64,000 nucleotides of DNA. It comes from Brachyhypopomus gauderio. Lineage: Eukaryota; Chordata; Actinopteri; Gymnotiformes; Hypopomidae. Shown here piece by piece: positions 1,726-58,300 of the stretch. The position numbers and the translations under genes are program-made. A model generated the notes under the pieces. That model was given only the letters and a program-made list of their open reading frames with translations. It ran no database searches and was not told the origin of the DNA. The stretch lies in contig NC_135223.1 of assembly GCF_052324685.1 (NCBI RefSeq), positions 19,537,822 through 19,601,821 of the forward strand, read 5' to 3'. Positions within the stretch are counted from its first letter, which is position 1, and each line of letters opens with the position of its first letter.

Positions 1726-2613
1726 TGCTGTTTATCTGCCTCCTCCACCACGCCAAAGAGCTCGCTTAAACACTGATATACAGATGCGCTTCTCACTTGC
1801 AAGAAGATGAAGGCAGTTTTCAATATTCTTCCTCTCAATATTCTTATTTCTGTTGTAGGATAGAGACACCGGATCATGATAGGGTGTTTAATGTAGCGTT
1901 AAGTTCTGATATTTATAGCACATCAACGTTGCACATCTTTCTAAATGTTTTTTACATTTTTTTGAATGGTTTCGTCAAGGTTTTCTTACCAGTCCCTTGA
2001 GACTTGACTACAGGTTTTTCTTTATTGTACAGCTGAAACTGTTAATCCTGTATTCTTTTAAAATGCAATTTCTTTCACGCCAGCCACAAAGCTCATGGTT
2101 TATGTAAAATGTCTTATTTCAGCAAAGCTAAGACCACTCAATAGCAGAATAAATTATTGGCTCTGTGTGAAAATGTTATTCACATTTAATCAGTTTAAGT
2201 TTAGGTGCTGTATACCGAGATGGATCAAAGAATAAGAGTAAGGCAAGCACAATCAGATGTGATTGTCGTACTGAGAATGCTGACACATTGATGAGAGTTC
2301 ATATTTTGCAAATCATAATATTCCTTATTGAGACACGGGTGAATACCTCAAGAAGTATAGGTATATTTAAACTTGTCTTCATTTGTTGTAAATGTACATT
2401 GTTGTAAATCTGTTCTGAAAAAATATTACAGAAATTAATCTGGTGTATATAATGTATTTGAATAAAAATTATATTTTTAAAACTGCAGCATTTCATCACC
2501 ACCAAGTCCAGAGATGGAATAAATAAGACAGTAGCAATCCTAGCTGGGGAACTGATTTGATTGAGGTTCGTAGTACTTTCCGTAGTGATAAAGAAGCATT
2601 TCATGCTCAAAGT
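1726..2613. other. convergent 3' UTR zone of cfap418 (+) and cd6 (-)
   Basis: No coding exon is seen here. On + there are AATAAA signals at 2148-2153 and 2461-2466, suitable for cfap418. On - the nearest AATAAA is the complement of TTTATT at 2021-2026, suitable for cd6. If these signals are used, the two 3' UTRs overlap. Which signals are used is inference. Confidence 0.5.
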
Positions 2614-5600
2614 TCACCAGTTTGCAACATCGTCATAGTCACTGTCGGAGGAGGACTGGTTCAGTTGTTGTGCACCAAAGCCACTCTCATTGTCTACATT
2701 TTCATATGTTTCCCCAGATGATGTGCTGCTGTTATCTACAGACAAAAGGAAAGCAATTACAGCCCATTCCAAATACACCTGACAGTGTTGAGTAGATTGA
2801 GTAGAAGAGTCACTTTACACATGCACAGGCAAAACACCAGTCAGACATTTTTGCAGAATTAGTACATTTACTGATTTTGCCAGTGGCTCACCAGGTATCT
2901 TCCTGGTTCTGATTCTTTGGTACTGGTCAAGTTCAAGTTGTGCTAGAATCAAGTTTTGACTGGACTGTCAATTAAATCATTTATGGTAAGGGACATTTGA
3001 TCAGAGAAGTTGATGCATTTAAGAATACCTTGGTTTGGAGAGCTTGGATGGACAAGACTGTTGTTTCCTGTTGGTTGAGGTGTGTGGTGGTTCAGGAGGG
3101 GCTGCACATGCAGTGATGGGCTTTGCTCCACTTTCAAAGATAAACAAGAGGTCATGTCTGAGGTTAGAATGGAATTCCTTTAGGTTTCTCCCATGCACAT
3201 AGATTTATTTTTTTCCCTCATTTAAGAATATTTGAGCTCACATGTCTCAAGAAGGTTCGTGACGTCAGCTATGTTTGCATAGCATTCACCAGAGGATGTA
3301 CTTCCTGAATCAGTCGAGTCCTCTACTCCACAAAGGAAAGACATTTTATGGATACGATCATATGGTCATATTTTATGGTTTATGGTTACATTTTATCCAT
3401 ATACTACCAACTTAACAAAAAAAGTTAAGAGACCAATTTATTTTAGATTACTGTGCAATGGCATCTGCAGTGAGTTTAACAAAGATAAACAGACCATAAT
3501 AATAATAAGTTTGATCTTGGTTGTTAAACTGACCTGGAATCTCAAGTTTCGCCTCTTCAAGAGGAGGATTTTCGTAACATTCCCCTGATGATGTACTCTC
3601 CAAATCAAAATCACCTTTATACCACAATAAAACATTTTGTCCTTACTTTTGACCTCCACAGAGCATTCTCGAATGTAGAGACATTACAGTACGTATGGAG
3701 TGACTACAACCTCCCCAAAGGGCCAAATACGAAGCAGCTTACAACTTCTTGTGCTTTTCGGAGCATTTCCCTCAGTGCAGATTCTTTCTTGTGCTTGAGA
3801 ACACTCGCCAACCACAGCCGCATTATCTAAGGCTGCAAATTGAAAGTTAGTTAGTGTGTATTCGTGTGGTTGATACATCCTTGCCAAACTGATAATCACA
3901 GCCCACTGACATGAATTATAGTCATCAATTATCAACTATAGTATGACTATAGTTCAACTATAGTATCAAATATGATGATCTTGAATTCTTATTGCACCAA
4001 TTACATTGGTTAATATCAGTTTGTTGTTTTGATGGACAATTACATCTGCTGACCTTTGTTTAAAAGTTTCTCCCTTTCAGGTTGTGTTTTTGTCAAATTC
4101 CCATGAAGATGTGCTATCTGATATGATCATATGGTCATATTTTATGGTTTATGGTTACATTTTATCCATATACTACCAACTTAACAAAAAAAGTTAAGAG
4201 ACCAATTTATTTTAGATTACTGTGCAATGGCATCTGCAGTGAGTGCTCAATGTAAATCCAGTTAACATTTTTAACAAAGATAAACAGACCATAATATAAT
4301 ACAAGTTTGATCTTGGTTGTTAAACTGACCTGGAATCTCAAGTTTCGCCTCTTCAAGAGGAGGATTTTCGTAACATTCCCCTGATGATGTGCTCTCCAAA
4401 TCAAAATCACCTTTATACCACAATAAAACATTTTGTCCTTACTTTTGACCTCCACAGAGCATTCTCGAATGTAGAGACATTACAGTACGTATGGAGTGAC
4501 TACAACCTCCCCAAAGGGCCAAATACGAAGCAGCTTACAACTTCTTGTGCTTTTCGGAGCATTTCCCTCAGTGCAGATTCTTTCTTGTGCTTGAGAACAC
4601 TCGCCAACCACAGCCGCATTATCTATGGCTGCAAATTGAAAGTTAGTTAGTGTGTATTTGTGTGGTTGATACATCCTTGCCAAACTGATAATCACAGCCC
4701 ACTGACATGAATTATAGTAATCAATTATCAACTATAGTATGACTACCAATTACATTGGTTAATATCAGTTTGTTGTTTTGATGGACAATTACATCTGCTG
4801 ACCTTTGTTTAAAAGTTTCTCCCTTTCAGGTTGTGTGTTTTTGTCGAATTCCCATGAAGATGTGCTATCTGAATCGACGTCACCTATAAACAACAGGGAA
4901 ACGGATTATTTGTACTTTGACTTCTTCACTTCTCCACTCTCCTGACTCCAAAAGGAAAAATATGATGTAACTTACAATTTGTCGTGTTTTGCGGAGCATT
5001 TCCATCAGTGCAGATTGTTTCGTGTGCTTGAGAACACTCAGCAACCACAGCTGCATCACCTAGGATTGTAACATCTACAGTTCCTGTCAGTTTGCATTGA
5101 AGATGATCTTGCCTTGCCAGCCTTATGATGGACGATGGTTTATAAAATACATTTGGCACTTGGTCAGTTCAGTCTTGCAGTGAATACTATGTTGAATGTT
5201 TTGGAACTATCTGGACGACATCATTTTAAACATATTTGTTTTGAATATCAGGCTTTTTTTGCAGAAGATATTTAACAGCTTACTGGGGAAGTTCACAGCA
5301 GCAGGTGACTGGACGTTACATTGGTAATACTGGTGGTAATCAAAGTCACTTGAGGTATCAGAACTGTCGTCCTGTGAGTATCTCCTGACTGTAGGTTCTC
5401 CTGTGGAGAAGGCAGGAGGAATGTCTTACCTGGTGTCCATCATCAGAAGTAAAAAATGACAAGCAAACAACAACAAAAAAACACTGTAAGAAAGCACTAG
5501 TTGAACTAAACTTGTCCAGAGTAAATATCAGCTCAGCAGGAAATGCTGTGGTTCCTGTACGTTTATTGTCTATTGTCAGTTTCAAATCTTGTCTGAGGTG

Positions 5601-8600
5601 CTTTAGGTGCTGAACAGACTTGAGGCCACAGACCATCCACAGCTGCTGGTGTAGGGAGGCTGTTGCTATTGTCCAGTTCCAGTGTCTGGATCCCCACGGT
5701 TGTGTAAGAGTTAGAGTTAGACTGTCTTTGGTAGATCACAAATGCTGTAAACACAAACAATGAAAACAGTTATACGTTTCAGTGCATTTTTGTACACTGT
5801 GCAGAATGAAAAACCTGATTGCTCATTATTGCTCTTTTCAATGAAAAAAAGGTAATAACGAATTATGAAATATTAAATTAGCTCTTGTCAAGAATGTGTT
5901 TTGGCCTGTAGTGCTGCATCATGCTGATTCAAAATATCTAAATAATCAACACATATAATCTATATATGTGTGTTGTGCGCATATCTTTACGCATGCTTAA
6001 CATGATCCTAATCAAAGTGAATCATTGTTTGGAGGCTCATAACAGCAGAATGACAACCGACCCCAAAGACATGAATATATCAGGAGCTTTTATGCATTCA
6101 CCATTTTGTTTTCCTCTGTAGTATTTGCAAGTGCCAATGTTTGAAATCAACAGCAAGAGCAGAACACTGGACAGACCAACACAGATCAGTGTTAGAGTTG
6201 AAATCCTGCCGCCGTGGGCCGTCACAGTCGCATTGCTTTGAGACTCTATATAGAAACACAGCAGTGAGCATCTGTCATATCACCTTGTGCATCTCTGAAT
6301 CTGCACAGAAACGCACAGAGACAGAGAGGCTTTCACAGTCAAATACTTTTTTTCTTTTCACTGTTAAATGAAAAAATAAAGTATTGTTTTTTGTCATGTT
6401 TTACATAGAAGGCAGGCTTTACCTGTTGTCCAGTTTGTGTTATTTAATTCAGTTGGTTTCATAGTAGTACCAGTAACATTTCCTGTTGGACATGAAATGC
6501 TGATGATTAGCATTAATTGTCCGAGTTTATCTGACCTTTATTTAGCCATTACCTTTTAGCTTTAGATCTGTCTGTCTTTCTGTCTATGTTATTCATGAAG
6601 CTATTCAATGAATGGGGGAAAAAAACATCCATGTTGTTGTATTGGCACTGGTGCTTTGAATATGTGCGGTACCTGAACACACTACTCCAGCGTCCTCCTT
6701 ATGGCCACAGAGGTCCGTGCGGTTGGTCGTCTGGGTGCTGCATTGCCACAGATTGCTCTCTGTCCCAGTGCAGTTCAGACTGCTGATGTGAATGGGACCT
6801 CTGCCGGGTCCAAACCCAACAGCGCCAGACATCACCTTCACAGCGGTACCACAGCGCAACTGCATACACACTACATTTCCTCCTCTCCAGTCCCAATCGT
6901 CATCGCACACCGAGCCCCACTGTCCAGCGTGCCACACCTCCACTCGCCCCGCACAGCTGTCGTTGCCTGCTGCCAAACGGATCGCCTGGTGCTCTGAGGG
7001 ACACAGTCTCATTATTTCAGCAAGGCTAAGACAAGCCTGGCCCGGTGGTAAGGGCGTGGCTGTTTCTAAAAGCAGAACCCTACGGTGTCTGCAGGAGCTG
7101 CAGATTACTTACCGCAGACGACGTCTGCTGTGTGCATGCAGTTGCTCAGTGGATCTACTGTGCAGTGGTGCACCGTGGAGTTTCTGATGATGCAGTCACT
7201 CAGGCAAGAGTTAGTGGGTGCTGTCCCGTTGTCCGTGAGATTGAAGAATCCCCCACAGCCAAGGTTCTCACACACTTGTTGGGCCAAAGGTCTGATGTCT
7301 TCAGTGGACAGATGTTTAAAGCTTAAAGCTACCCATCTGCCTCGGTGAAGGGTCATCAGAGTTCCAGAACAAGCCGCAGAGAGGTTGAGACTGGAGGACC
7401 CACCTTCAATGTATGAGGAGAAATGTTAGATGAAATGGTCTATTGGTTATAGTAGCTGATTTCTGTTATGAAATTGCTTGTTCATGTATGAAAAATGTGC
7501 ATGTTTGTTTTGAGTCAGATTTGATTGTTGGCTGTGCTTTTGCATTTGCTATAAATCAGTCAACAGGCTTTTGTCAAGACTCATACAATAGAGATAATGT
7601 TGCTATGTTGCAAGAGCTCAAGGTAAACTGCACACACAGCCACATCCCGTGAGTCACTTCCTGTGGAAATGTCAAACTGTGGCATGGAGGACACTGGGGA
7701 AAACTTTTTTTTTTGAAGGCAAAAAGGCAACAGTACAACTGTGGTTAGAGCTCATGAAGTTGTATAGTAAGATAGGCAGCTGTGGAATACTGGAGGAATA
7801 TTAGTGCAGAAGACCCTACAAGTTCAATGGTCACTATTTTGAATGGGAATACCATGAGATTTAATAGAGTTCTGCAGAGGTGGCGATCCATGCAGGAGGA
7901 ATCCCTTTAGATCAGGCCTTTAGATCCCTTTAGATCAGGCCCTTCAGATTAGGCCTTGTCTTACTCCTTCCGCTCTCTCTACGTCTACCATTGTGGTGTT
8001 GCCCCTTCATGCGTATCACTGGTCCTCAGACTTGTGTTCTCTTGTTCCATTGTCAAAGACTTTGTGCGCTGTGGCAGTACTGTTCTCCAAACCTGTCTTA
8101 CAGACTTTAATAAAAGTCCTTTAATAAAATCAGTTTCCTGATTGCTCCTTACCTTTGCAGAGTGTAGTGATTCTGAGGCAGCGTTGCCATGTTGTGATAT
8201 ATCTCGGATTATGCAGAGGACTGACAGTTAATATGATGCGGGCAGTTACAAAGACTCTTGAATCACCCAAACAAACAAAGAAAACTCACTGTGCTTGAAT
8301 GCAGGCTTGCCGTTCGTGACAGGCTCGGTCCTATGAGAGGAATCGGTGGCTCCCTGGAGTCCTGAAGGTAAACAGGGAGGAACACTGGTCTATGTCCTGA
8401 CTGTAATGTGCAGTACAGAAAGAGGCTATGACATTCATTTCCATAGAATTAATGTATGTTTAGCAACATACATGTATGAGACAATTATGACTGGTATCTG
8501 CTTGAGCAGATTACTGTGCAGCCTTGTAGATGTCAGAGATACGTTTACTGCACCGACACAAATGTACTGAGGTTTAGCATGCACATACAGTCGCTCACAT

Positions 8601-12185: not shown

Positions 12186-12237
12186 AGGCCCTGACCCTAA
12201 CCCTAACCTTAACCCTGACCCTAACCCTAACCCTCAG
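12186..12237 (+). repeat. interstitial telomere-like repeat
   Basis: About eight units of CCCTAA and close variants (CCCTGA, CCTTAA) in an otherwise ordinary sequence between two repeats. The right edge runs into CCCTCAG. It is far too short and too variant to be a functional telomere. Confidence 0.85.
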
Positions 12238-14135: not shown

Positions 14136-17064
14136 TCACTGGAACCACGGGTGGAGTTCTATCTCTTCCAAACTGGGCCGGTCTGCTGCTTTAGTACTCA
14201 AACACCAGCTGATCAGCTGACGACACTCTGTTACACGACACCAAGTTAACACTCATTAGCATAATGCAACCTAAGATTATGGCTGGATCATAGTTTAAAA
14301 TTACTCCCATGCCGTCTTTAAATGTAAATGTCTTTGGACTGCTCAGAAGTTTTCTTGCCTGCAGACAGGTCCTTGGTGAAGCGTAAATTGCCTTTTATGG
14401 TGTCTTGTCTGGTTTTGAAAGGCAGAAAGCCACACACTAATCTGAACAGTGTCACGCCTACAGACCACACAGTGGCTGGGTCAGCCAGGTACTTTTGCTG
14501 CAGAAACCACTCTGGAGGGGTATAGTGAACTGTGCCTATGAACACACAGACAGGAAATGTACATTAAATGTTAAAGCAGCAAATCAGCAAATTAGTGAAT
14601 TACAGCTGTCATTAAACTCAAACTCCAAGGGTAATATATATATACTGTTGTTCATGCAGACCTGTCGCAGGGGTTGTTGGGTTGGGTGGGGGGGACCAGA
14701 GACAATTTAAACTAGGTGCTGAGAGCATTTTAAGGGGGGGTGGGGGTCATGTTTCAAACAGAGGTCCTTCATCAGCTCAGTTTCTCTGCAGTTATTATAT
14801 ATTTCCAGAGAAACAGGACGTTATAGTCAGAGGTCCTTCATTAACTGTGCAAGCAAAGTGCTTTGAAAGTGCAAAGTGCAAAGAACCACTTTGCTTGCAC
14901 AACTCTAGACCTCTGTCTGAAAGGACCTGGATCTACACACACAAAAAAAACCAAATACACAAAACTCTAAATTAAGAACAGATGTTTCCTAAAATCTTTT
15001 AGATAGCTTGATATTAGGCTGACATCAGATACCTGCAAAGTCCTTGTATGCAGAGTTCTTGTGGAAGTCCCCACAGCCAAAGTCACATAGTTTAACATGA
15101 TGGGTGTCTGTCTGAATCAGAAGGTTCTCTGGCTTGACATCTCGATGCAGGATTCTGCTTCTCTTACAATGGTGCAGTGCCTTCATGAGCTGCACCATTA
15201 CCTTTCGGGCAATGCTCTCACTCAGCGAGCCGCCTTGGTCTTTACAGAAGGCGTCCAGGTCCTGACATGGTTCTGGCCGTTCTAGGATCATGATGTAACG
15301 TGTGGGCTGATCATACCAATCCAGCATACGCAGGACATTGGGACACTGTGGGTCAACATTTGCCTTGGTCATCAGACCCACCTCCAGAGGCACAGTACCC
15401 TGCCCTGGCTGAAAGGAGAGGTTCAAGTGTTCAAGGAAAGTTCTAATAACTGGGTGGAAATGCACCAAAACATGATAAACGTATGATAACTGATAAAAGT
15501 ATGATAAACTTACAATAACTATATTCTCCTCTGCCTTGGCTTTGGAAACATATTTGATTGCTACCTGAGGGAACAATTCAGTTGTGTTGATCGATGATTT
15601 TTTCAAGTTTAATTACATGCAATCGCTTACATAAAAGCAAACAAAACAGGTTCTAGGTGCAGTGGCGATTTTGTTGTTGTAAATAATAACTTTGCTGGGT
15701 GAGTTCAGTTCTGCAGCAATACAGTGGTGCTAACATCAAGGCCAGGAGCAAATAGCTCCTGAGATAAAGTATGCTTATGGGATTTTGCCAATTAATCTTA
15801 AAGAATTACAAAAATCCTGAAACTTAAAAAAAAAAATGATAGAAAGAGAATGTATTGGTCATTAGCGCTTGTTAAATTGAATACATCGTTTAAAGATTGT
15901 CTAAGATGTTAACTGAGCTTGAACACACTCGTTTACAGTGAGAGGAGAGATGACGTGTCTTACTGGTGCTCCGTCTTCTTTGCGTGTCCCAGCAAACACA
16001 GAGCCATATCCTCCCTTGCCCAGCAGATCCCCCTTCTCATACAGTTTCACAAGACGACCTAAAACACACTCCAGACATGAGTACCTCATACACCTAGTTC
16101 CATTACTTCTCATATGAGCTCAGCCTCACCTTTACGAATGCGCTTAGCGTGGGTCTCAGAGTTCTCCTCTCCTGGCTTCTTCTGCAGGAGCCAAACCTTC
16201 TCTCTCAGATTACTGGAATCCTCTTGGTCTCTGTTGCTGTCTTGACTGCGCCGGCGCTTCTTAGCTCTAGGACATGCAGGATGCCCCAGAGGGGAGCAGG
16301 AGCTTGGCACAGGGGGCAAAGGGGGCACAGGTGCTACGCTCGCCCCTCTCACCTCTCCCAAGTTCCTGGAGGGCACAGCTACCCGTCTTGGTGGGGCTTG
16401 CGGGTGACCCTGGGAGGAAGCCCCCGGTGACGGGAGGGGTGGGGATGAAGTGGAGGTGGTGGAGCAGCTCTGCGCCTTCACACCACCTGAGAGCGAGTGA
16501 TGGGAGGTGCTGGGCTGTTTTCTTTTACCCCTCCCTCTACGCCTGCCGCCTCTCCGCCGGGTCCTGCTTGGGCCTGAAATGCACCAGTAGGTAAGGATTA
16601 CGCTGTAGCTTTTCAGTAAAGTTGTTTACAGCCATACTAATCATCTGATTAATGTGTAATTGTAATAACCTAGCAGTATAAGATAAAATACAGAGTAGTT
16701 ACATATCTTTTTTTCCTTGATTTGTGTTTGATTTATATATGCAAATTTGAGCAATTAAAATGTTAAACTGTTATTATTATTCATGAGCATTATGACACAT
16801 CATGTTAAGAGTGGAGTTTGTTTTTTGCAACACAATACCACTACAAATTACTCCATTATTTAGCAGATTGAACAGATTGATATGTTTTATAGATTTGAAT
16901 AGAGCCTTCGTTTTTTTTTTTACTAGAAATCTTCTAGCCTAGCTTATCTCAGACTACATTATGTAGTCTAATAAAGTTTCTAACAACGTTCCCAGTAACT
17001 CGATTCAAGACGTTCCTTAAAAAAAGAGAAACTTGTACTCACCTGATTTTTTGCGGTAACCCAT
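14136..17064 (-). CDS. PIM-family serine/threonine kinase (pim-like), complete
   Basis: Seven coding exons give 418 aa: 17043-17064, 16130-16573, 15964-16058, 15514-15564, 15033-15408, 14359-14535, 14136-14227. Residues 1-155 form a low-complexity leader: MGYRKKSG, an Arg/Gly-rich block, Pro/Ser-rich sequence, then a second basic stretch. The kinase domain follows: glycine loop GKGGYGSV (169-176), Lys191 in VAIK, Glu213 in VPLEVGL, the PIM-type hinge ERPEPCQD, HRDVKPEN (292-299), DFG (313-315), PPEW, and the final HPWFQ before the stop. All catalytic residues are present. PIM kinases are constitutively active survival kinases with a Pro-containing hinge, and fish genomes carry many pim-like copies. 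Intron 6 has a GC donor (CAG|GCAAGA). The long basic leader is not found in the short mammalian PIM isoforms. It is not assignable to pim1, pim2 or pim3. Confidence 0.9.
14815..14930. repeat. hairpin-forming repeat in the pim-like intron
   Basis: TGTGCAAGCAAAGTG and its inverse CACTTTGCTTGCACA face each other about 20 bp apart. They are flanked by inverted AGAGGTCCTT / GACCTCTGTCTG segments. A related direct copy of GAGGTCCTTCATCAGCT lies at about 14760. A similar block (GCACTTTGCTTGCACAGCTG) is in the first nagpa intron near 46090, so this is a dispersed family. Confidence 0.6.
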
Positions 17065-21687: not shown

Positions 21688-22422
21688 TCAGTCACTGCTG
21701 TCGTCCTCGTCCTCGTCGTCCGACATGTTGGTGCCGCAAGGCGGCCGACTGTAGGAGTTCGAGCGGGGGGGCAGGGTCGCCCCCGTGGAGAGCTGCTCGA
21801 AGCAGAACTCGCACACGCGCACCGGCTTGGACGACTGGCTGGGCAGCAGGAACTTCTTGTCGGAGCAGGGCCCACACACGACGAAGCCGCACTTCCTGCA
21901 GTGGTGGCGCCTGCTGACGGGCGTGAACTTCACCTTCTGGCAACGCATGCACACCGAGGCCTCCGAGTCGGGCACCCACACGGCCGCGTGCTCGCCGCTC
22001 GGCGCCTTCCCGCTCTTCTCCAGCAGGTCCGACACGCACTTGTTGATGTGGCTCATCCACTCGGACTTCTCGGTGGCCGTGGCGGCGTAGACGGCGAAGG
22101 ACTTGGTGGGCGTCTTGATGAGCCAGCCGTTGCGCAGGTCGCCCTCGTCGGCCACCGTGTCGATGGTCACGCTCTCCAGCGGGATGATGTGCTGCTTGTT
22201 GTACTTCTTCTTCTGGATGACGATGTTGCCGTACACCAGGATGTCGTTGAAGAGGAAGAACTGGCGGGCCTTGGGCTTTTTACGGCACAGCTTGGTGAGC
22301 ACGCCCTCGCCGATCAGCACGCGGCCCGGGATGGCCAGCGGCTGGCCCGCGGTGCCGAAGCAACCCTCCACAACGCCGATGCGCTTCGAGTTAGCCTCGC
22401 TGTTTGCCAAGCGGTCCACCAT
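21688..22422 (-). CDS. plekhf2: plekhf2 (phafin-2), PH and FYVE domain protein, single coding exon
   Basis: Intronless 244-aa coding region (human PLEKHF2 is 249 aa). It starts MVDRLANSEANSKRI. The PH domain spans about residues 30-130 (KARQFFLFNDILVYGNIV, NGWLIKTPTKSFAVYAAT, WMSHINKC). A FYVE zinc finger spans about 150-212, with WVPDSEASVCMRC, the phosphoinositide-binding RRHHCRKCG and the remaining Cys pairs in place. The acidic tail ends DDEDEDDSSD. The start is fixed by a consensus ATG just inside a 3' splice site (TTTCCCAG, exon from 22433), so the 5' UTR is spliced. Family knowledge: phafin-2 binds PI3P on early endosomes and contributes to receptor trafficking, macropinocytosis and autophagy. 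The GC-rich coding region stands out from its AT-rich surroundings. Confidence 0.97.
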   Translation of the reverse strand: MVDRLANSEANSKRIGVVEGCFGTAGQPLAIPGRVLIGEGVLTKLCRKKPKARQFFLFNDILVYGNIVIQKKKYNKQHIIPLESVTIDTVADEGDLRNGWLIKTPTKSFAVYAATATEKSEWMSHINKCVSDLLEKSGKAPSGEHAAVWVPDSEASVCMRCQKVKFTPVSRRHHCRKCGFVVCGPCSDKKFLLPSQSSKPVRVCEFCFEQLSTGATLPPRSNSYSRPPCGTNMSDDEDEDDSSD

Positions 22423-25400
22423 GTTTCAGTAACCTGGGAAATTGAGGACAAAAGAGCCCAAGTTTGGTCACGGAACACGAGGTCTACACATGCGGTTCTT
22501 TACTTCAGAAACACAGGGTGATTTTGTGTTTTTGTAAATAAGAGCTACTGTCACAAAGCAGCTTTACAAGAACTTAGGTTCCAACACTTAAACAAGCAGA
22601 ACTGAAGAAAGCCTCTTCAATTTGGAGAAAGGAAACTACAAGCAAATTAAGCCTTCTGTCACCAATGCTCAGATTTACAGTGAAACTAGAGCCATCTTAC
22701 TGAAGCATAAGAAAGAATTAAAGTTGTGCTAATATGAAAAAAACTACTGGAAAACAAGAACTCCCCTCTGTAAAATATGAAACCCAATATTTTCAATAAA
22801 GTTTTCACCCAATATTATGAGGTGATCACTAGTTAAAAAGTAGCATATCTTCATATGTATGTTAAACAGGCATGGGTTATAACATTTTGTAATTTAAAAA
22901 AATCATGCATTATATATTTTACTGTCATAATTCAGGAAGTCTCCATTTGCTTGTGTGCATGCATGGGCACACAGTTGACACATGAACGTATATGAAAATC
23001 TCTTCTTATGTCCACGCGCACGACTTTAAAACTGTCTTTTTTTAATTAATAGAACAGAAACCATTTTTATGTCTTGCCTTTTTCAACGCAGCACAGGCAG
23101 ACAGACCAATTCTCTATCAGCAGCATGCAGTACCTTATCACAAAGCAGCCATACCAAACCCTTTACCATACCTCTAGAAATAGCAGCATGTTGCCTAAAC
23201 AGGTCCATGCAATGTACCGTGAGAGACACTGAAAGATCTCTGTGGAATCATTTATGGAAGCCCTTCAAATCACTTCACCGACATGGCAAAAGTCATTTCC
23301 CCAATGGCACAGTCCAGACCGCCTTATCCATTGCAGCCAAGAAAAAGCTTCCAAGATTAAAGTTACACAAGCCTCGAAACAGGAGCGGACACAATCCAGT
23401 CAAAAATATAGGTTGAGACTTCCAGTAAAGACACTATAAAATAAAAACTCAAAGGAATAAAACTGCTTGTGATGAATTGAGTCTTCCCAAAATACCGACA
23501 AAATATGTTTAATCCGTCAGCTCTTTAAGAGCTTGCAAGGGTGAAAGCTATACTTCCTGTTTTGAGTCAACAGCCTCTTAGCATTTCAACATGTTGCATA
23601 AGTACAAATCACTGCAAAGATGTGAAAGTCGGCTGAACCCGACACAAACAAACCAATTCAATTGTTGTAACCTGTTCTATATTTAAATATGGTCCACCCA
23701 CTTTACAATCATAGGACAACCCTTCACTATCGTCACTGATACTCGTACACTGATACTCTCATAATCCCAGTGCATATCATGCTAATCATCGCCTTAATAT
23801 TACAAGAGCTGGTAATGCAGAATTATGATTTAAAAATCCAAACAGGTTTCAGTAACAGGTTTTCAGTCCTGCCTTGTGATTCTCACCTCAGATGTTTATA
23901 GCTAATGTATCTTGGTACACCATCAACAATAATGTGGTGAACGAGTTTGTGAGGACAACCCCTTGCCGAGAGGCACACACTTAACCGACAACCATACAAT
24001 CTGGCTATCCCCACACCCACACACACATGTGCAAACTTGCTCACACACTCAATATTAAAGCCTGGATTCTACTCTTTTCAGAGGCCAGGTCACAGTAGGC
24101 CCAAGATATCCCCACCATTACTGTGATAACTGGAAATTAGCTGAAGACACTGGATACGGACGACAGGCACAGAGACACCGGATTTCATTAACCTACTTGG
24201 CCCTTCATGCCCAACACTGTGCTAATTCAACTGTGGGTATCAGCACACACAGAGTCCTCATTTTAACAGGAAGGCGTCTAAACAGACGAGCCAGAGGTAC
24301 AAAACTGAGAATGTTAAATCAAGCCCAAAAAATTGAGAGATCCAAATGCTCGATCCCAAATATATGTACAAAACATGAGTGCAGAAAGATGATAAACCCA
24401 AGAACTTCACAAGTGCAACATTACTGGCTATAACAGCATTGTGTGCAGATTCCTTTTAAAGCCCTTCTTGTTGAAACCACATTTGTGCTAAAATACTTCT
24501 GCCATTTTAGTCTCATCTAATAAAATGTTTAATACATATGATACTAGGAAGTGTGCTCGGCCATGTTTCATATTCTTGATATGCTGGGAGCTGATTTCAG
24601 CCACAACTCCTGAAGACTTAAAAGACTTCTTTAAGGACAAGCCAACTAACAGTCATGTTTAACAGTCATTTAAACTTTGACATTTGTACATATTTACATA
24701 TTTGTAACATCTAATAAATTAGTCTTTCCATCTCCTTATAATATGTGAATAAATAAAGTAGCATGCAACTTCGCATGGCAAAAAACACAAACAACATAAT
24801 TCTTCCATAAAATAGAACACCAAGTCAATTCCACGGTATACAGAAAACGTTTCCTGGCTGCCAATACCCTGTCAGTACAGGGCAGCTGTACTTACAAAAA
24901 CTAGACATGTGGTAACAAGAACCCTCACAGCAGAGCTGGCCTTGTGACTCACTTCCTTCTCTCTAAAGAAATGAAAGTAACAAACAATATATCAGTCAGG
25001 AGGAGGCAAGAGAACTGGACTAATTAGTCATGGACATAGTTGAAGTTGTACATTCTTGCATTTAAGCATTAAAATGTTCCAAGATTCATAAAATATATCC
25101 ATTAATGGAAAAGATCATTAAAGGCATGTTCCAATGAGACAAAATCTGAGTAAATTTAAAGCAAAAATTCTAATGTTGATACAAGAAATGGTACAGTTCT
25201 TTGGTACAGGTACAGTGTGGTAATTGTGTATGGGTGTGCAAGGATATGCTGGCATGAATATGTATGTAGATATTTAAATAATGGCTATATTTGTCTCCAT
25301 TATGTTGTTTATGTGCACGAATGCAGGTCTGCATTGGCTGAATCTATTATTAAACCGAGTGATGCCCAACAGTGAGAGTTTGTTCTCAATTAGCCTACAT

Positions 25401-26163: not shown

Positions 26164-27347
26164 TAGGGCTGCACGATGAATCGTATTTTTATCGTTATCG
26201 CGATGTGAAGTTTCACGATAAACACATCGAAAGAGCCACGATAACTCCTTGAATAACAGCAAACTCAAATTGCATTATCCTCGTCCAGCAATAGAGGGAG
26301 CTATTCACGCTGCAGACTATGATCACGTGACGTAAGTAGGCAAGAGGCAGAGTGAGGTGAACACGCTCATCAGACACGCGATTTGGTTTAAGCCTGGTTT
26401 ACACTTGATGCAGCGCGAGGGTCCGCAAGGCGAAAATAACGTAATCACGGTGGCTTCGCCCGTGCGCGATGGTCTCGCGCGCTGTCGATTCACGAGGTCG
26501 GCACCTCTCGAATTTTGTAAGTTCTCGCGCGCCGCGTCTCAGCGCAATGAGAACAGTCATGTTTACCGGGTTCATACACCTATACAAGGTGGAATTAAAG
26601 CACTTGTACGTCACTTTCAAGGTCCATTTCAATAATTCCCAGCTCGTTAAACTTAATTGAGTTAAATATGTATACATATACTGTACTCTAAATGATTCGA
26701 AATAATTCGCTTTTTTTTTATCACATTATTTAATGGTTGTTTATTTTCAAAACGCCCAATCTTAACGTCTTCACGTTCTTTCATGTTTCGTCCTGGAATT
26801 ACAAGAGGCTCGTATTTGTTAATGTAATTACAAGAGAACTGTTCAGTCAGACAGATATTTGTTGTGAAACGAAGTAGTTACAATTTCAAGTACTTTAGCC
26901 TAAATTCCAGCACTTTTCAAACCTGATACACAAAGCAACATTAAAATTGGTCAGGTAAATGTTCATTCCCCTGTATTTGAGGGGTGTTTTTTCTATACTA
27001 CTAGGCCTACATATCGTTTCGGACAACACTGCAAAGAATGTGACACGGCAAGATTAAACACTTCCGTCGTTCGCGGAGGTTTACGCGAGGTGTGTGGAGT
27101 CGCGCTACGGTCACTCGTGAAAGTATAAACCTAGATTGAATCTATTGTTGAATAAACCTGCAAAATATTTGGAATTATTCTGGATTCATTACACAGTAAA
27201 AAAAAAAAAAACTAATTAATGTGCTGCTGTTCAGAGAGACACTACATCTCTGTATTTTAATCTTAATTTATCGTGGTTCACATCGATATCGGGATATCCA
27301 ACAATGTTATCGCACATCGTAATTTTAGTCCATATCGTGCACCCCTA
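26164..27347. mobile_element. hAT-like DNA element 1, non-autonomous
   Basis: The termini TAGGGCTGCACGAT and ATCGTGCACCCCTA are inverted near-copies. They are flanked by a perfect 8-bp target-site duplication, CCTCCTAT (26156-26163 and 27348-27355), the hallmark of the hAT superfamily. The element is about 1.18 kb long and shows no transposase frame, so it depended on an enzyme supplied elsewhere. It contains the module shared with element 3. Confidence 0.92.
26392..27135 (+). repeat. internal module of hAT element 1, shared with element 3
   Basis: Begins GGTTTACACTTGATGCAGCG and ends near CACTCGTGAAAGTATAAACC, so it has its own imperfect inverted ends. The same module occurs in reverse orientation in hAT element 3 (32715-33365). 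Segments such as GTACGTCACTTTCAAGGTCC and TGGAATTACAAGAGGCTCGT are almost unchanged between copies. Confidence 0.8.
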
Positions 27348-32458: not shown

Positions 32459-33763
32459 TAGTGCTGGGCAGCATGACCTAAATTCTGTATCACGGTATTT
32501 TTCAAAATGATATCGGTTTCACTGTATTTGACAGTTTTTTCCCCCCATGCATGATGTTTTAACTGCATTGATTACGAAAAGAATTAATGCAGTAGAGTGG
32601 TTAAGAGTGCCCTATTCCACTGTTAGAAAAATGTCTCCACCTAAGTATTACATGTAATACAGATTTGCATGGCCCCACATGATCAGTTTTCAAATGGTAG
32701 CTCTAAAGTAGTGAAGGCACACCTCGTGTGAACCTGCGCGAACGGTGGAGGCATTTATACTTGGGGCATCACATTCTTTGCAGTGTTCTCCGAAATGATA
32801 TGTGGTAGTATAAAGAAACACCCTCAAAAACTGGGGAAGGAACATTTACCTGATGGATTTTAATGTTGCATTGTGTTCCAGGTTTGAAAAGTGCTGGAAT
32901 TTAGGCTAAAGTACTTAAAAATGCTTGTAACTATTTCAGTTCTCTCAAATACGAGCCTCTTGTAATTCCAGGGCGAAACATGAGAACGTGAAAATGTTAA
33001 GATTGGGCATTTTGAAAATAAACGACCATTAAATAATGTGATTAAAAAGCTAATTATTTTGAATCATTTCGAGTATATGTATAAATATTTAACTTAAGTT
33101 TAACATGCTGGGAAATATTGAAATGGACCTTGAAAGTGACGTACAAGTGCTTGAATTCCACCTTGTAGGTGTAACACTGCAAACATGACTTTGTTCATTG
33201 CGCTGAAGCGCGGTGCGCGAGAAGTTACAAAATTCGATAGGTGCGCAACCTCGCCAAGTGACAGTGCGTGAGAACCTTGTGCAAAGGCGGAGCCACCGCA
33301 ATTACGCCGGTTTAGGCGCGCAGACCCTCGCGCCGGTCGCAACGCATCAAGTATAAATCTAGCTATACACTTAGCAAGCTTTAGCTTTATGGGTGGTGCA
33401 GCAGATTGCTCGTTACCACCAGCCATGACAACTTTTGCTCAACAACATTTGCAGTAGGCTAAGTGACTGTTTGGTCCATGTCCGTCCTTTAAACCCCATT
33501 TTCTTCCTGACAACAGACACGGCTCCTTTCTTTGGCAAAAGTTCCTTTGGGGCATCATCTTTTACTTCAATGTTTGCGCTCTGTTGCATGTGTGCTTAGC
33601 AGCGCAGCAATAAAAAGCATCCCTTGAGAAACAATTTATGACCGTGTTACGTTCCGGAGAGGTGAAGGTTATTTAAACCGGTGTTGCCGGTATATGAAAA
33701 ATTCTTATGGTAACAAAAATAAACACCGGTTTCCGGTGTGTACCGGTATACCGCCCAGCACTA
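32459..33763. mobile_element. hAT-like DNA element 3, non-autonomous
   Basis: The termini TAGTGCTGGGC and GCCCAGCACTA are inverted. They are flanked by 8-bp direct repeats with 7 of 8 bases equal (CTACAGCA 32451-32458, TTACAGCA 33764-33771). CGGTAT / accGGTaTACCG subterminal motifs occur at both ends. The element is about 1.3 kb with no transposase frame. It contains the element-1 module in reverse. Confidence 0.85.
32715..33365 (-). repeat. internal module of hAT element 3, reverse copy of the element 1 module
   Basis: Read on -, this stretch follows the 26392-27135 module from TTTATACTTGATGCGTTGCG through TACAAGGTGGAATTCAAGCA to the G-rich end. Divergence is moderate and several short deletions are present. 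The host elements have different termini, so the module was inserted or captured independently, or is itself a transposable unit. Confidence 0.8.
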
Positions 33764-52000: not shown

Positions 52001-53917
52001 TGTGCAGTGCGGAGAAGATGTGGCGGTGTCCACGAGCTATCTCCACCGTCATGTGTGTTCACGAGCGCCAGTGCCAACCCGACGACTGCAGCCAGCACGG
52101 TGCCTGCGTGGACGGACGGTGTGTGTGCCAGCCCGGCTGGGCCGAGCCCACGTGTGCCAATCTGACGTGCCAGCCGCCGGCCTGTGGGGCCCACGGTATC
52201 TGCACCCCGGGTGAGTAATCACGTCTGTGTGCTCCACTTTCCCGAGTGCATGTGTGAACGTCCTGGACCTGTATCCTGTGTGGAGAACAGGGGTCTGTGT
52301 GTGCATAACATCGGGCAGTGAGTCAGCTGCATCTATTTTGTTCATTGTTATTTAGTTTAATGAAGGATAGAGCTGCCCCTCTGACCCTGTCACTTGAAGT
52401 AGTCTGAAGCAGAGACTCACTCACAAGTCATGTTAATGAAGACATCATTCAAGAGCTGTAATCTTCTCCCTGTCCAATTATTTATCAGGTGTTCAGTGCT
52501 TTAAATAGTGAATTGTTAACACTGTGATATACAGGAGGCATGTCCACCATGCAGCACATGAACTAGTCTAGTGTTAGAAGGTCAAATTTATATATTTTTT
52601 TTTTCCAAAATTAAAATGTTTGTAACTATTATTGTTTATGCAGATGCATCATGATTTTGGTAAAATTCTAGATATATGATACAGAATACAGTAGATTTTT
52701 CTGAGGAGTAATGTTGTTGTTTGGGGGACTAGGCTGCTAATACTGTGATAAACACAGTAATACTGCGGTAATTTTTAAAATCATCATTCTATAAAATAAC
52801 ATTAAAGTTTCTGCTTCTTGAATTTAATAAGGATGGTGTTTTAGCTAGAAATGTGCATGAAGTACTGTTCTCTCTGTTCCATCTCACTCTGGACAGATGG
52901 CTGTGTCTGTGATGCAGGGTGGATGGGTGCCAATTGCAGTCAAGGTAAACATAGCCAAAGTCTACTCTGTAGTTGCACAGAAACTGGATTATTTAAGATG
53001 ATGATAAAGGATACGAAACACATAAAAAATGGCTTCAAGCTTAAAGGATTAAGGAAATATGACTTTCCTTTCCCTGAGATGTATGTTGCCTATTGAAAGT
53101 TGTGATAGGTAGTTTTACAGTTCAATTGAAAAAGTAACAGCAGTCTTAATACCCTGCATTGAAAAATGCTATAACCACAAACACTTCACCCAGGCTTGAC
53201 GTGTAGGCTGTTGTCATGTATTTTTTACAAAAAACGAAGTCTTTCTGAAAAAACATATCTTGCTGTGTCCCCCATTCTAGAGTGTTCAGCAGGTTTCTAT
53301 GGTGACGGTTGTAATCAGTCATGCACATGCGTAAATGGAGGGTCCTGTGACCCCATCCATGGGCGATGCACCTGTCCAGCTGGATTTCAAGGAGACTCCT
53401 GTGAACAAGGTGCATACAAGCAGCATTCGCCAGATCAGAAGTCATAGCTAGTCTTAACTTTAAAATGTCTCTTAACTATATTTAACTGTAGTGTACATGG
53501 TCCTATTTTAATATTCTGGTTAACCCAAAAGTAGTTCAAAAAAATGCCACATGTCGCAGCACGTGCTGACACGCTGTCTCTTCCCAGAATGTGCGCTGGG
53601 CTTCTATGGGCTGGGCTGTGGTCAGCCGTGCCAGTGTGGTGACCTCTGCCCATGCGATCCGGTCACTGGCAGCTGCAATACCACGTTTCATGGCCAGAGG
53701 AACAGCAGCCTGCATGCAGGTACACATCCGTATGTCATCTTAGACGTGAGCATTCAGTAGATCTCGGTTTGCTGTTTTGTTTATTCATTTTTGCTGTTTT
53801 CTTTTAGCTTATTTCGTTTTTTGTCCTTGACCATGCCTTGGTATATATTCAGTTCTATGTAAACTATCATGGTTTGGTCCCTTGTGCTGTCTGTGTTTAA
53901 CTTCCAAGTGATGCCTT

Positions 53918-55376: not shown

Positions 55377-58300
55377 GCTTGTCTGAATGGATTTGTATGT
55401 GTGTGCATCACCAACAAAGATGGGTGTGAGTTTGTGCGGATGGCTAATCTGTGTGGACCCTGCTTCAGTTGGCTGTCTGACTTCATCCTCAGTGGCTTTG
55501 CTCTTTATTCGTCATACAGGTACAGGGGGTTTGAACTAAACATTTCACTCCTGATTTCATTCACTGATAAATAATCCACAGTGACCAAACTAAAAGTCTC
55601 AGGCACAAGCCATGGGAGTGAATACATGGAGAAAACGCATAGGAGTGTGTACACAGAAGTGAGTACACATACATCACACGCATCATCAATTGTGTGCCAT
55701 GATTTCTGAGTAAGCGTTTTGCCATAATTATTTATTTGATACCTCAGAGACGTCCATTTTGTCTGTCTGGCTTGAATATAACTGCAGACCGTATTGTTAG
55801 GTCACTTGTAGAGTTCTTCATGTTCCTAAAGCTGCATCTGTTGCCATGGGAGCAGACGAGGGTCGAACTGTAAGTGTTCTAAGAAGGTCTGCAATATTGA
55901 CTTTTTTCCCCTTTTTCACTTTGAAAACATGGTCAGACCATTTGGCTTTTATAATGCTTACAAACTGCATGTTGTCTTAAGCAGTTTCCTTGGTTATACA
56001 TTGTAAAGTCGTGCACTAATTTGCTTTTGCATGCTCTCCGGAGGCAAAACAAGGAAATTTAATGTACTTTGAACTTGACACTCATTTTGTTTGTCAGTGA
56101 ATCTGTGAACCAGAGGGAGGATCATCCTCACACAAGACGTGTTACCTAATATGTTGGGGCATCAAACCTAAGTAATTAGTTCTCCAAGATAAAGCAATTT
56201 TCTGGTGTTACTAGCTTTTTTGTACAATGTTGGTACACGTACATACAGTCTGTGTGTTAGTCTCAGTATTGCAAATGAATTCATGTGTCAAAATAGCACA
56301 GCTACAAATGAACTACAGCAAAGTAAACTACTGTAGTCTTTATCTGTTTGATATGATGACACACGTTCCTGATGACGATCAACATGGGTGGCTCCATGTT
56401 TGTTGTTTCACCTTTTGCAAGTGTCCGTATTACACCCTGAACTGAACTCCACTCTGACGTATCTGCCCTGCCCAAGGCTTTACTACACAACAAAGCTGTT
56501 GAAGCTACCATAGTGTCTGCTTTGAATGATCAGTATTTAGACTCATAGCAAGAGGTCAACAGTATGCTGATTTATAAAACAGGTGGAAGGAGAGGCCATT
56601 GCTGATGGCAGTTTGTGTCCACTTTATTTATGTGGCTAGGTGTTTTTCAGTAAGACCAGAAACTGTTTACAGTTCTCTTGAACATGCAGTAGAGAGTACT
56701 GCTTAGAGTTGCTCAAGTTAACTTTGTGTTTAAATGTTCTAATGTTTAGTTTTTGCAGTTGATTAATTGGGTTCACAGTTCTTTTTCCCCCTCAATCCAC
56801 TGATCAGAATGTCAAGCCAACTCCTTATCAGAAGAATGGTGCCATGTACATTCTGTGCCTTGGTAGATCTTAATGCTTTGGGAGTGACGTATCAGTTGTT
56901 TTTTTTTTTGTGTTGACCTGTTTCAGTATTAAAACAGGTCTAATGCTGGAAGGCTCCATTCTTTGGGTTATCTGTCTTCCTGCGAGTTAAGCTCCAGCTC
57001 TCATCACGCTTGGTTTTAAGCTCTTGGTTACCTGAAGAAGGTGTTATCACATCTTCGTGAGGCTGGGCCCAACACTGAGCAGAAGGGATGGGTGTGGGGA
57101 AAGGGAAGGCCAATACCCTCCACCATAGCTTCCTGTACAATCCTCACCAAGCCGTGCCAATATCCTTATATGATAAGGATATACCCGTTTCCTCATTTTT
57201 CATCTTCTGCTTAATGAGCAGCCGTAGATTTCACTCTCATAAGCTGAGATCCAGTTCCAGAACTACTTTTGGGTTAGCCAGAATATAAAAAATAAGTATA
57301 TATGTAGTATACATGGTCAAGAGACATTTTTAAGCTATGACTTCTGATCTGGAGAATACTGCTTGTATACACCTAGCTCACAGGAGTCTACTGCACATCC
57401 AGATTACTGATGGTGATATACAGTTGAAATTCTATGTAAAATGTGAGATTTTATACATCTTGTTAAGTATTGCATAATTCATGCACTTCTGCATATAGGA
57501 ATTTAATATAAATTAATGAATTGAATCTGTGATTTGTCAAGTATAACTGTGTGCAATGTATTTGCTGTTATACATTGTGCATTTCAACCCATTTGATTTT
57601 TCCATTATCATTTCAATTCACAAAGAAACTTTTGATAAACGTATTTGTATTAATAAATGACAAAAAATAAACATTTTGGAATCAGATAAATGAATAAATC
57701 AAGTACTGTATGTTCAACACAGCTCATTTGGTTATTGCTAATACATATACATTAAGCACAAGCCATGACTTCCAAGTCTTTTCAGAGTTCTGGCATTGTA
57801 GCTTGATGGCACTGAACATATTTTGGCCCTTAGACATATTGTATTTCCTATTATCTTCTGTGGTTTAAACCAGATATTTGCTTCTTTTCATTGATAAGTG
57901 ACACGTTGGTGTCTCTTTGTGGAGCTGTACTGTCATGCCCATGCTATTAAGTGGCAGGACGCTCCACCTGTTAGTTTCTGATTGCCTGAGGCTGCCCCCT
58001 CCCAGCTCTTTATCTGATGCAATCCTCCACCAGGATGTCAGTTTCTAGGCTCTTTTACATAATCGTGGACACACTCCAGCTTTGTTTTACAGTATTTTTT
58101 TTTTTCATTCAGGGATGGTATAATAATCTGACCTAGTTAGTGAACTGTTTGTATTGTAGATTATCGTGCATTGCAAATGATATTATCTACCGCAGCTGGC
58201 TTATCTAATTATTTTATCCAATGCTAGCTGTTCTTTGTTCATGTCTATCCAGACAATGAGAAAGTAATCTTGGTATGCTTTAATCAAGAACATTCTTTGT

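Follow-up and report, generated by a model that had tools for sequence, protein, structure and literature searches.

Tandem copies of an X-Y exon pair in the predicted cytoplasmic tail of a cd6-like gene of Brachyhypopomus gauderio

The window, that is, the whole stretch of 64,000 nucleotides of Brachyhypopomus gauderio DNA that was analysed, carries on its minus strand a gene that, judged from its sequence, is cd6-like. In the predicted transcript, a linker, two SRCR, a stalk and a transmembrane exon were modelled, in falling coordinates, ahead of a cytoplasmic tail of the predicted order c1-c2-X3-Yf-X2-Y2-X1-Y1-Yr-P-last, where X and Y denote two types of short exon; the first exon of the gene was not found. 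Splice scores were calculated with approximate vertebrate weights, not with a trained program. The features were assigned as follows.

7403-7113 and 7059-6673, minus strand: two SRCR exons, by the Pfam SRCR profile
6102-6245, minus strand: transmembrane exon, with the hydrophobic run LICVGLSSVLLLLLI
5634-5744, minus strand: predicted first cytoplasmic exon, c1, with a weak donor (score 3.4)
5284-5400, minus strand: membrane-proximal tail exon, c2, containing SSDFDYHQYY
4976-5059, minus strand: exon X3, DAAVVAECSQAHETICTDGNAPQNTTN, the older X copy, 84 bp, by translation
4803-4883, minus strand: exon Yf, DVDSDSTSSWEFDKNTQPEREKLLNK, Y-type without tyrosine, 81 bp, by translation
4120-4868, minus strand: upstream copy of the putative young tandem duplication (most of Yf, X2, Y2), by repeat finder, alignment and self-BLAST
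4539-4628, minus strand: exon X2, like X1 except that the optional first six bases encode I in place of L, by alignment
4330-4410, minus strand: exon Y2, protein identical to Y1 with one silent difference, YxN site, 81 bp, by alignment
3351-4119, minus strand: downstream copy of the putative young tandem duplication (Yps, X1, Y1), by alignment with 4120-4868
4054-4117, minus strand: Yps, a 5′-truncated Y-type exon at the duplication breakpoint, STSSWEFDKNTT then stop, by alignment and translation
3743-3832, minus strand: exon X1, (LD)NAAVVGECSQAQERICTEGNAPKSTRS, without tyrosine, by translation and splice scores
3534-3614, minus strand: exon Y1, DFDLESTSSGECYENPPLEEAKLEIP, YxN site, 81 bp, by translation, alignment and splice scores
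3242-3322, minus strand: exon Yr, DSTDSGSTSSGECYANIADVTNLLET, YxN site, 81 bp, by translation and splice scores
3029-3130, minus strand: predicted proline-rich exon P of 102 bp, by its open frame and splice scores (6.2 and 4.2)
2612-2735, minus strand: last exon, NSSTSSGETYENVDNESGFGAQQLNQSSSDSDYDDVANW then stop (at 2612), by translation, acceptor score 12.1

The SRCR assignment was strong for exon 7059-6673 (Pfam E 3.8e-30, 104.6 bits), while exon 7403-7113 scored slightly below the cut-off of 26.1 bits (E 4.4e-05, 24.2 bits). A third SRCR exon was found neither by tblastn of the window with both SRCR exons nor by scanning four frames of at least 75 aa, upstream on the minus strand, against Pfam, searches that a divergent or split exon could escape; human CD6 has three, according to the available part of PMC3195340. 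With the strong SRCR exon as query, phmmer listed CD163, CD5-like, CD6 and other SRCR chains, a result that does not decide orthology by itself. Otherwise the layout resembles that of human CD6, with an SRCR ectodomain, one transmembrane exon and a multi-exon tail.

The cd6 identity proposed by an earlier sequence-only reading was supported, in the form of a cd6-like gene, by the last exon. This exon encodes STSSGETYEN...SDSDYDDVANW and aligns with the human CD6 C-terminal peptide STSSGEWYQN...DNDDYDDISAA, as printed in the available part of PMC5440646, with a score of 56 that was reached by 1 of 5000 shuffles. As in human CD6, STSSGExYxN is followed by DYDD near the C terminus, and the two motifs are the counterparts of human Y629 (YxN) and Y662 (DYDD). 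Y1 and Yr aligned equally well with the Y629 part of the peptide (1 of 5000 shuffles each), and the match of Yf was weaker (13 of 5000 shuffles as good). In contrast, the human peptide, which covers the 47 C-terminal residues, was not matched by c2 (1066 of 5000 shuffles as good) or by X1 and X3 (3501 and 2154 of 5000, respectively). Across all six frames, the window contains the string STSS 12 times, six in the cd6-like gene and six elsewhere, and the latter were never followed by GE. Further, the SSDFDYHQYY of c2 is similar, by eye only, to the SDSDY-type (ERM-binding) sequence of CD5 and CD6, for which SDSDYEHY is quoted for comparison (PMC6376265). The 355-residue predicted tail matched no Pfam family up to E 1, and a PDB search with a 298-residue version returned a single match, cytochrome c3 (E 0.68), that was taken as chance. 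For fish CD6, a figure legend in PMC3195340 names the fish protein 14d8 a CD6 orthologue; PMC9276791 and PMC8818700 mention CD6 once each and do not treat the tail. Searches by title and abstract gave no study of a fish CD6 tail and, among the matches listed, no CD6 exon duplication, a weak absence as subscription papers lie mostly outside the coverage.

All three X exons described in the sequence-only reading were borne out, at 5059-4976, 4628-4539 and 3832-3743, each bordered by AG/GT and open in phase 1-1. The sizes and borders of the Y exons also held (4883-4803, 4410-4330, 3614-3534 and 3322-3242), but of the supposed three copies of STSSGExYEN only two exist, both reading STSSGECYEN; the third Y exon of the array, Yf, encodes STSSWEFDKN, with Asp in place of Tyr, and a fourth Y-type remnant, Yps, had been left uncounted. 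The likeness to the CD6 motif STSSGExYxN consequently stands for the Y exons that keep the tyrosine (compare human STSSGEWYQN; PMC5440646, available part) and fails for Yf. A tyrosine with Asn at +2 was present in Y1, Y2, Yr and the last exon and absent from Yf, Yps, X1, X2 and X3. As the X exons lack tyrosine, Yf has lost it and Yps is broken, the array is not uniformly one of phosphotyrosine exons, as it had been called. Counted from CKYYRG, the predicted tail is 355 residues long and includes 13 tyrosines and four YxN sites, one each in Y2, Y1, Yr and the last exon. It also holds 14 cysteines, 12 of them between X3 and Yr, in a partly regular pattern with two per X exon, one in the X-Y junction codon and one directly before the Tyr.

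Some splice borders allow more than one choice. X1 and X2 each have two candidate acceptors six bases apart, giving exons of 90 or 84 bp (for X1, first base 3832 or 3826), and X3, with 85% DNA identity to X1/X2, has a weak acceptor (score 2.4, 77th percentile). Yr starts with AG, and a second acceptor AG lies three bases upstream (scores 5.4 for first base 3322 and 4.8 for the alternative, 3325). Exon P, absent from the earlier reading, has a low donor score of 4.2, and near c1 a candidate exon outside the model, 5483-5430, competes with high scores in other phases. Descent of X from a degenerate Y exon was considered, given the common GEC and the similar size and phase, but this homology was unsupported by shuffles: of 1000 shuffles, 12-18% did as well as the protein alignments of X1/X2 with Y1, Y2 and Yr, 71-74% as well as X3 with the same exons, and 73-78% as well as any X with Yf.

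The exon repeat was real and far beyond chance. In detail, the repeat finder reported a 300-base stretch of the array duplicated at 100%, and the longest of 12 matches in a self-BLAST of the window (matches of at least 60 bases with E up to 1e-5 counted) fell on the same repeat, with 627 bases at 94.6% including indels. Alignment of 3351-4119 with 4120-4868 showed 9 substitutions in 720 aligned bases together with indels of up to 47 bases, the next largest being 26. The substitutions were spread over introns (6/501), X (1/90), Y (1/81) and the truncated exon (1/48). The most likely explanation of these data is a tandem duplication, young and about 750-770 bases long, in which an exon pair was copied. 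One of its breakpoints lies inside Yf, so the downstream copy starts with a 5′-truncated exon, Yps, which has kept the donor, has lost the original acceptor and carries a 2-base deletion that shifts the frame into a TGA.

The same 1.25% divergence and few indels would also fit two alleles of a single unit set head to tail by the assembly, since an allelic difference of that order is compatible with a fish. Such an artefact is quite improbable in our judgement. No run of N separates the copies, and the junction between the Yf interior and the intron, with about 2-5 shared bases (by eye), fits a mutational breakpoint better than an overlap join. Moreover, the frame-breaking difference between the copies sits in the exon that lost its acceptor, whereas, were the copies alleles, Yf would be damaged in one of them. 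Elsewhere in the window, self-BLAST gave no match of at least 95% over at least 100 bases, the only such match belonging to the young duplication. As for Yps itself, the AG at its junction scored 1.9, which places it at the 74th percentile among the 3926 AGs on the minus strand of the window. A regulated poison exon was conceivable here (a junction AG, phase 1 and an end at TGA) but, given this 74th-percentile acceptor, Yps was treated as dead and is probably not spliced in; the acceptor of X3 stands only at the 77th percentile, so that the acceptor score by itself cannot decide the fate of Yps.

An older event was apparent upstream. X3-Yf could be aligned with X2-Y2 across both exons (X, 71/84 bases identical; Y, 53/81) and across parts of the intervening intron, indicating that the X-Y pair was copied as one. 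By these alignments the pair is duplicated at least twice, with X3-Yf as the older copy. Identity was higher in the exons than in their flanks, both for X3 vs. X2 (71/84 against 22/30 and 12/30) and for Yf vs. Y2 (53/81 against 9/30 and 17/30), a weak hint of constraint on both X and Y.

Substitution counts were then compared for five pairs of exon copies, with rounded counts and without correction of the p values. Y1 and Yf differed by 10.5 silent and 18.5 amino-acid changes on 15.6 and 62.4 sites, respectively, a deficit of amino-acid changes (one-sided p 0.009), and Y2 vs. Yf, a comparison not independent of the former, gave the same direction (p 0.015). No deficit was found for X1 vs. X3 (3 silent and 9 amino-acid changes on 18.8 and 62.2 sites, p 0.57), nor for the highly diverged pairs Y1 vs. 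Yr and Yf vs. Yr (p 0.90 and 0.89). With no tyrosine in Yf and no indication of purifying selection on X, the array may be neutral in part. It is in fact conceivable, if rather unlikely, that the whole duplication is genuine but essentially neutral, an in-frame pair without any selected change in signalling and perhaps a polymorphic allele. The neutral-looking X1 vs. X3 comparison and the lost tyrosine of Yf agree with this, as do the young copies, which differ about equally in exons (2/171, X and Y together) and introns (6/501); the phase 1-1 of all modelled internal exons would also make an added pair harmless to the frame. Against neutrality stand the copying of the pair at least twice, the retention of YxN in four exons (Y1, Y2, Yr and last), and the deficit of amino-acid changes in Y1 or Y2 vs. 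Yf.

The phase 1-1 frame and the sizes of 81-90 bp were as previously described, but the phase is not special to the array, as all 15 internal exons modelled were open in it, 9 of them in this phase exclusively; this uniformity arises partly by construction, most exons having been sought as 1-1. When any phase was allowed, 28 candidate exons were obtained, 17 with a length divisible by three, and some of those outside the model, e.g. 5483-5430 and 6360-6284, scored like modelled exons. With every modelled internal exon open in phase 1-1, an extra X-Y pair keeps the frame. The stronger claim that any subset of exons can be spliced in frame held for 856 of the 1024 subsets of ten tail exons and failed for 168. 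The only stop-making junction among the tail exons was X followed by Yr (T+AG gives TAG), and the failing subsets equal in number those with an X-Yr join (128+32+8). This stop lies 181 bases (79+102) ahead of the last exon junction, from which mRNA decay would be expected, following the general rule for transcripts with a stop well before the last junction. The alternative Yr acceptor avoids the TAG, so the restriction is confined to the better acceptor.

The number of YxN sites ranged from one to four over all 1024 subsets. In principle, the number of docking sites could be set by the X-Y pairs included during splicing, which is the tunable array imagined in the earlier reading. The 856 open subsets, the one-to-four range, the two candidate acceptors of X1/X2 and the weak one of X3 are all consistent with it, and human CD6 transcripts lacking tail exons (8, 8-9, 8+12 and 9+12) are reported in the available part of PMC3195340. 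The same part of that paper, however, gives full-length human CD6 as the predominant form, and here X-Yr joins give a stop, avoided if splicing takes the alternative Yr acceptor. Regulation by splicing is plausible, yet a splicing-tuned array as the explanation of the locus is unlikely in our estimation, although it is compatible with the explanation by extra docking sites that follows.

We favour, with confidence slightly better than even, the explanation that two tandem duplications of the X-Y pair enlarged the tail of the cd6-like protein, the recent one raising its predicted GADS/GRB2 valency from three to four. An older duplication would have produced X3-Yf beside a further X-Y pair, with Yf now devoid of tyrosine, and the recent one, of about 750-770 bases, would have copied X-Y again, its breakpoint in Yf leaving the broken 5′-truncated exon. 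If the open copies are spliced into mRNA, the tail would present four YxN sites (Y2, Y1, Yr and last) and an SLP-76-type SDYDDV. Because an X-Yr join makes a stop, the Y exon before Yr should not be skipped alone, and X and Y are expected to be included as a pair. The low scores of the X3 acceptor, the P donor and the c1 donor (2.4, 4.2 and 3.4, respectively) weigh against this explanation. The X exons may act mainly as cysteine-bearing spacers.

By homology with human CD6, each YxN exon is a putative GADS/GRB2 site. In one assay, the phosphorylated human Y629 (YxN) bound GADS at 1-3 micromolar and GRB2 at 2-4 micromolar. SLP-76 is the partner of Y662, and mutation of both sites abolished costimulation; in cells, GADS but not GRB2 was significantly enriched with CD6 (PMC5440646, available part). 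Upon T-cell stimulation, the tail sites would then be phosphorylated and GADS/GRB2 with their partners docked, and a higher number of sites would give higher valency and avidity, as in LAT with its several GRB2 sites. In the modelling of LAT, as given in the available part of PMC3291652, bivalent molecules had no gel phase while trivalent ones could have one; on this model we conjecture that three or four sites might let a tail cluster in a manner that a single site would not. The comparison with LAT, which like the predicted tail carries several GRB2-binding sites on a membrane-anchored tail (PMC3291652, same part), concerns mechanism and claims no kinship.

Compared with human CD6, eleven exons are predicted after the transmembrane exon vs. 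six (8-13; PMC3195340, available part), the predicted tail has 355 vs. 244 residues, and four YxN sites are predicted vs. one characterised (PMC5440646, available part). Extra tail exons also vary the tail of a T-cell receptor in bovine WC1, a group B SRCR co-receptor (types II and III); type III, with six tail exons, is longer by about 80 residues and has one more motif for tyrosine phosphorylation (PMC2681482, available part). However, WC1 varies between paralogous genes, and near-identical tandem exons within one gene are not described in the available part of PMC2681482. Tandem exon duplications, e.g. of SNAP25 exon 5, resemble the present case in that neighbouring exons were copied within a gene. 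Among the matches listed, and judged by title and abstract, several of these are mutually exclusive alternatives, whereas here a pair was copied and an additive outcome is expected. The locus most likely carries a young exon-pair duplication and belongs with known kinds, namely CD6 tails with optional exons, variable-length SRCR receptor tails and tandem exon duplication, and at present, as far as the sequence allows, it is best described as a young structural variant in a known receptor gene.

Human CD6 is reported to send positive as well as negative signals in T cells. With a natural CD6 that has three or four YxN sites, the effect of docking valency on the sign and strength of such signals could be studied, and evolution would be seen to alter signalling dose by copying an exon pair instead of a gene. 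A bolder version, which we regard as highly doubtful, is that X-Y is an actively expanding, copy-number-variable unit, with YxN number varying among individuals or related species and CD6 becoming a LAT-like, cluster-nucleating scaffold. If so, three or four sites would lift CD6 above a bivalent GADS/SLP-76 co-receptor to a self-sufficient nucleator of signalling clusters.

Several further features were observed elsewhere in the window. The nearest gene noticed upstream of the cd6-like gene consists of two minus-strand open frames at 14321-15612 with Pfam Pkinase matches (E 7.1e-10 and 1e-23), which we take by eye to be PIM-like. A minus-strand frame at 21691-22425 combines a PH domain (Pfam E 2.6e-11) with a FYVE domain (2.5e-20) and resembles a PLEKHF/phafin gene. 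On the plus strand, 46489-46941 matches the NAGPA phosphodiester glycosidase slightly below the cut-off (E 3.5e-05) and 53175-53444 gives EGF-like matches; both are perhaps parts of one NAGPA gene. A 70-base EGF-encoding stretch is repeated in inverted orientation at 53380-53449 and 57333-57402 (87%, about 4 kb apart). The segments 26440-27094 and 32718-33306 match in opposite orientation at 82-84% and are perhaps copies of a mobile element. At 12189-12234, CCCTAA is repeated 7.7 times with 87% matches, resembling an interstitial vertebrate telomere repeat.
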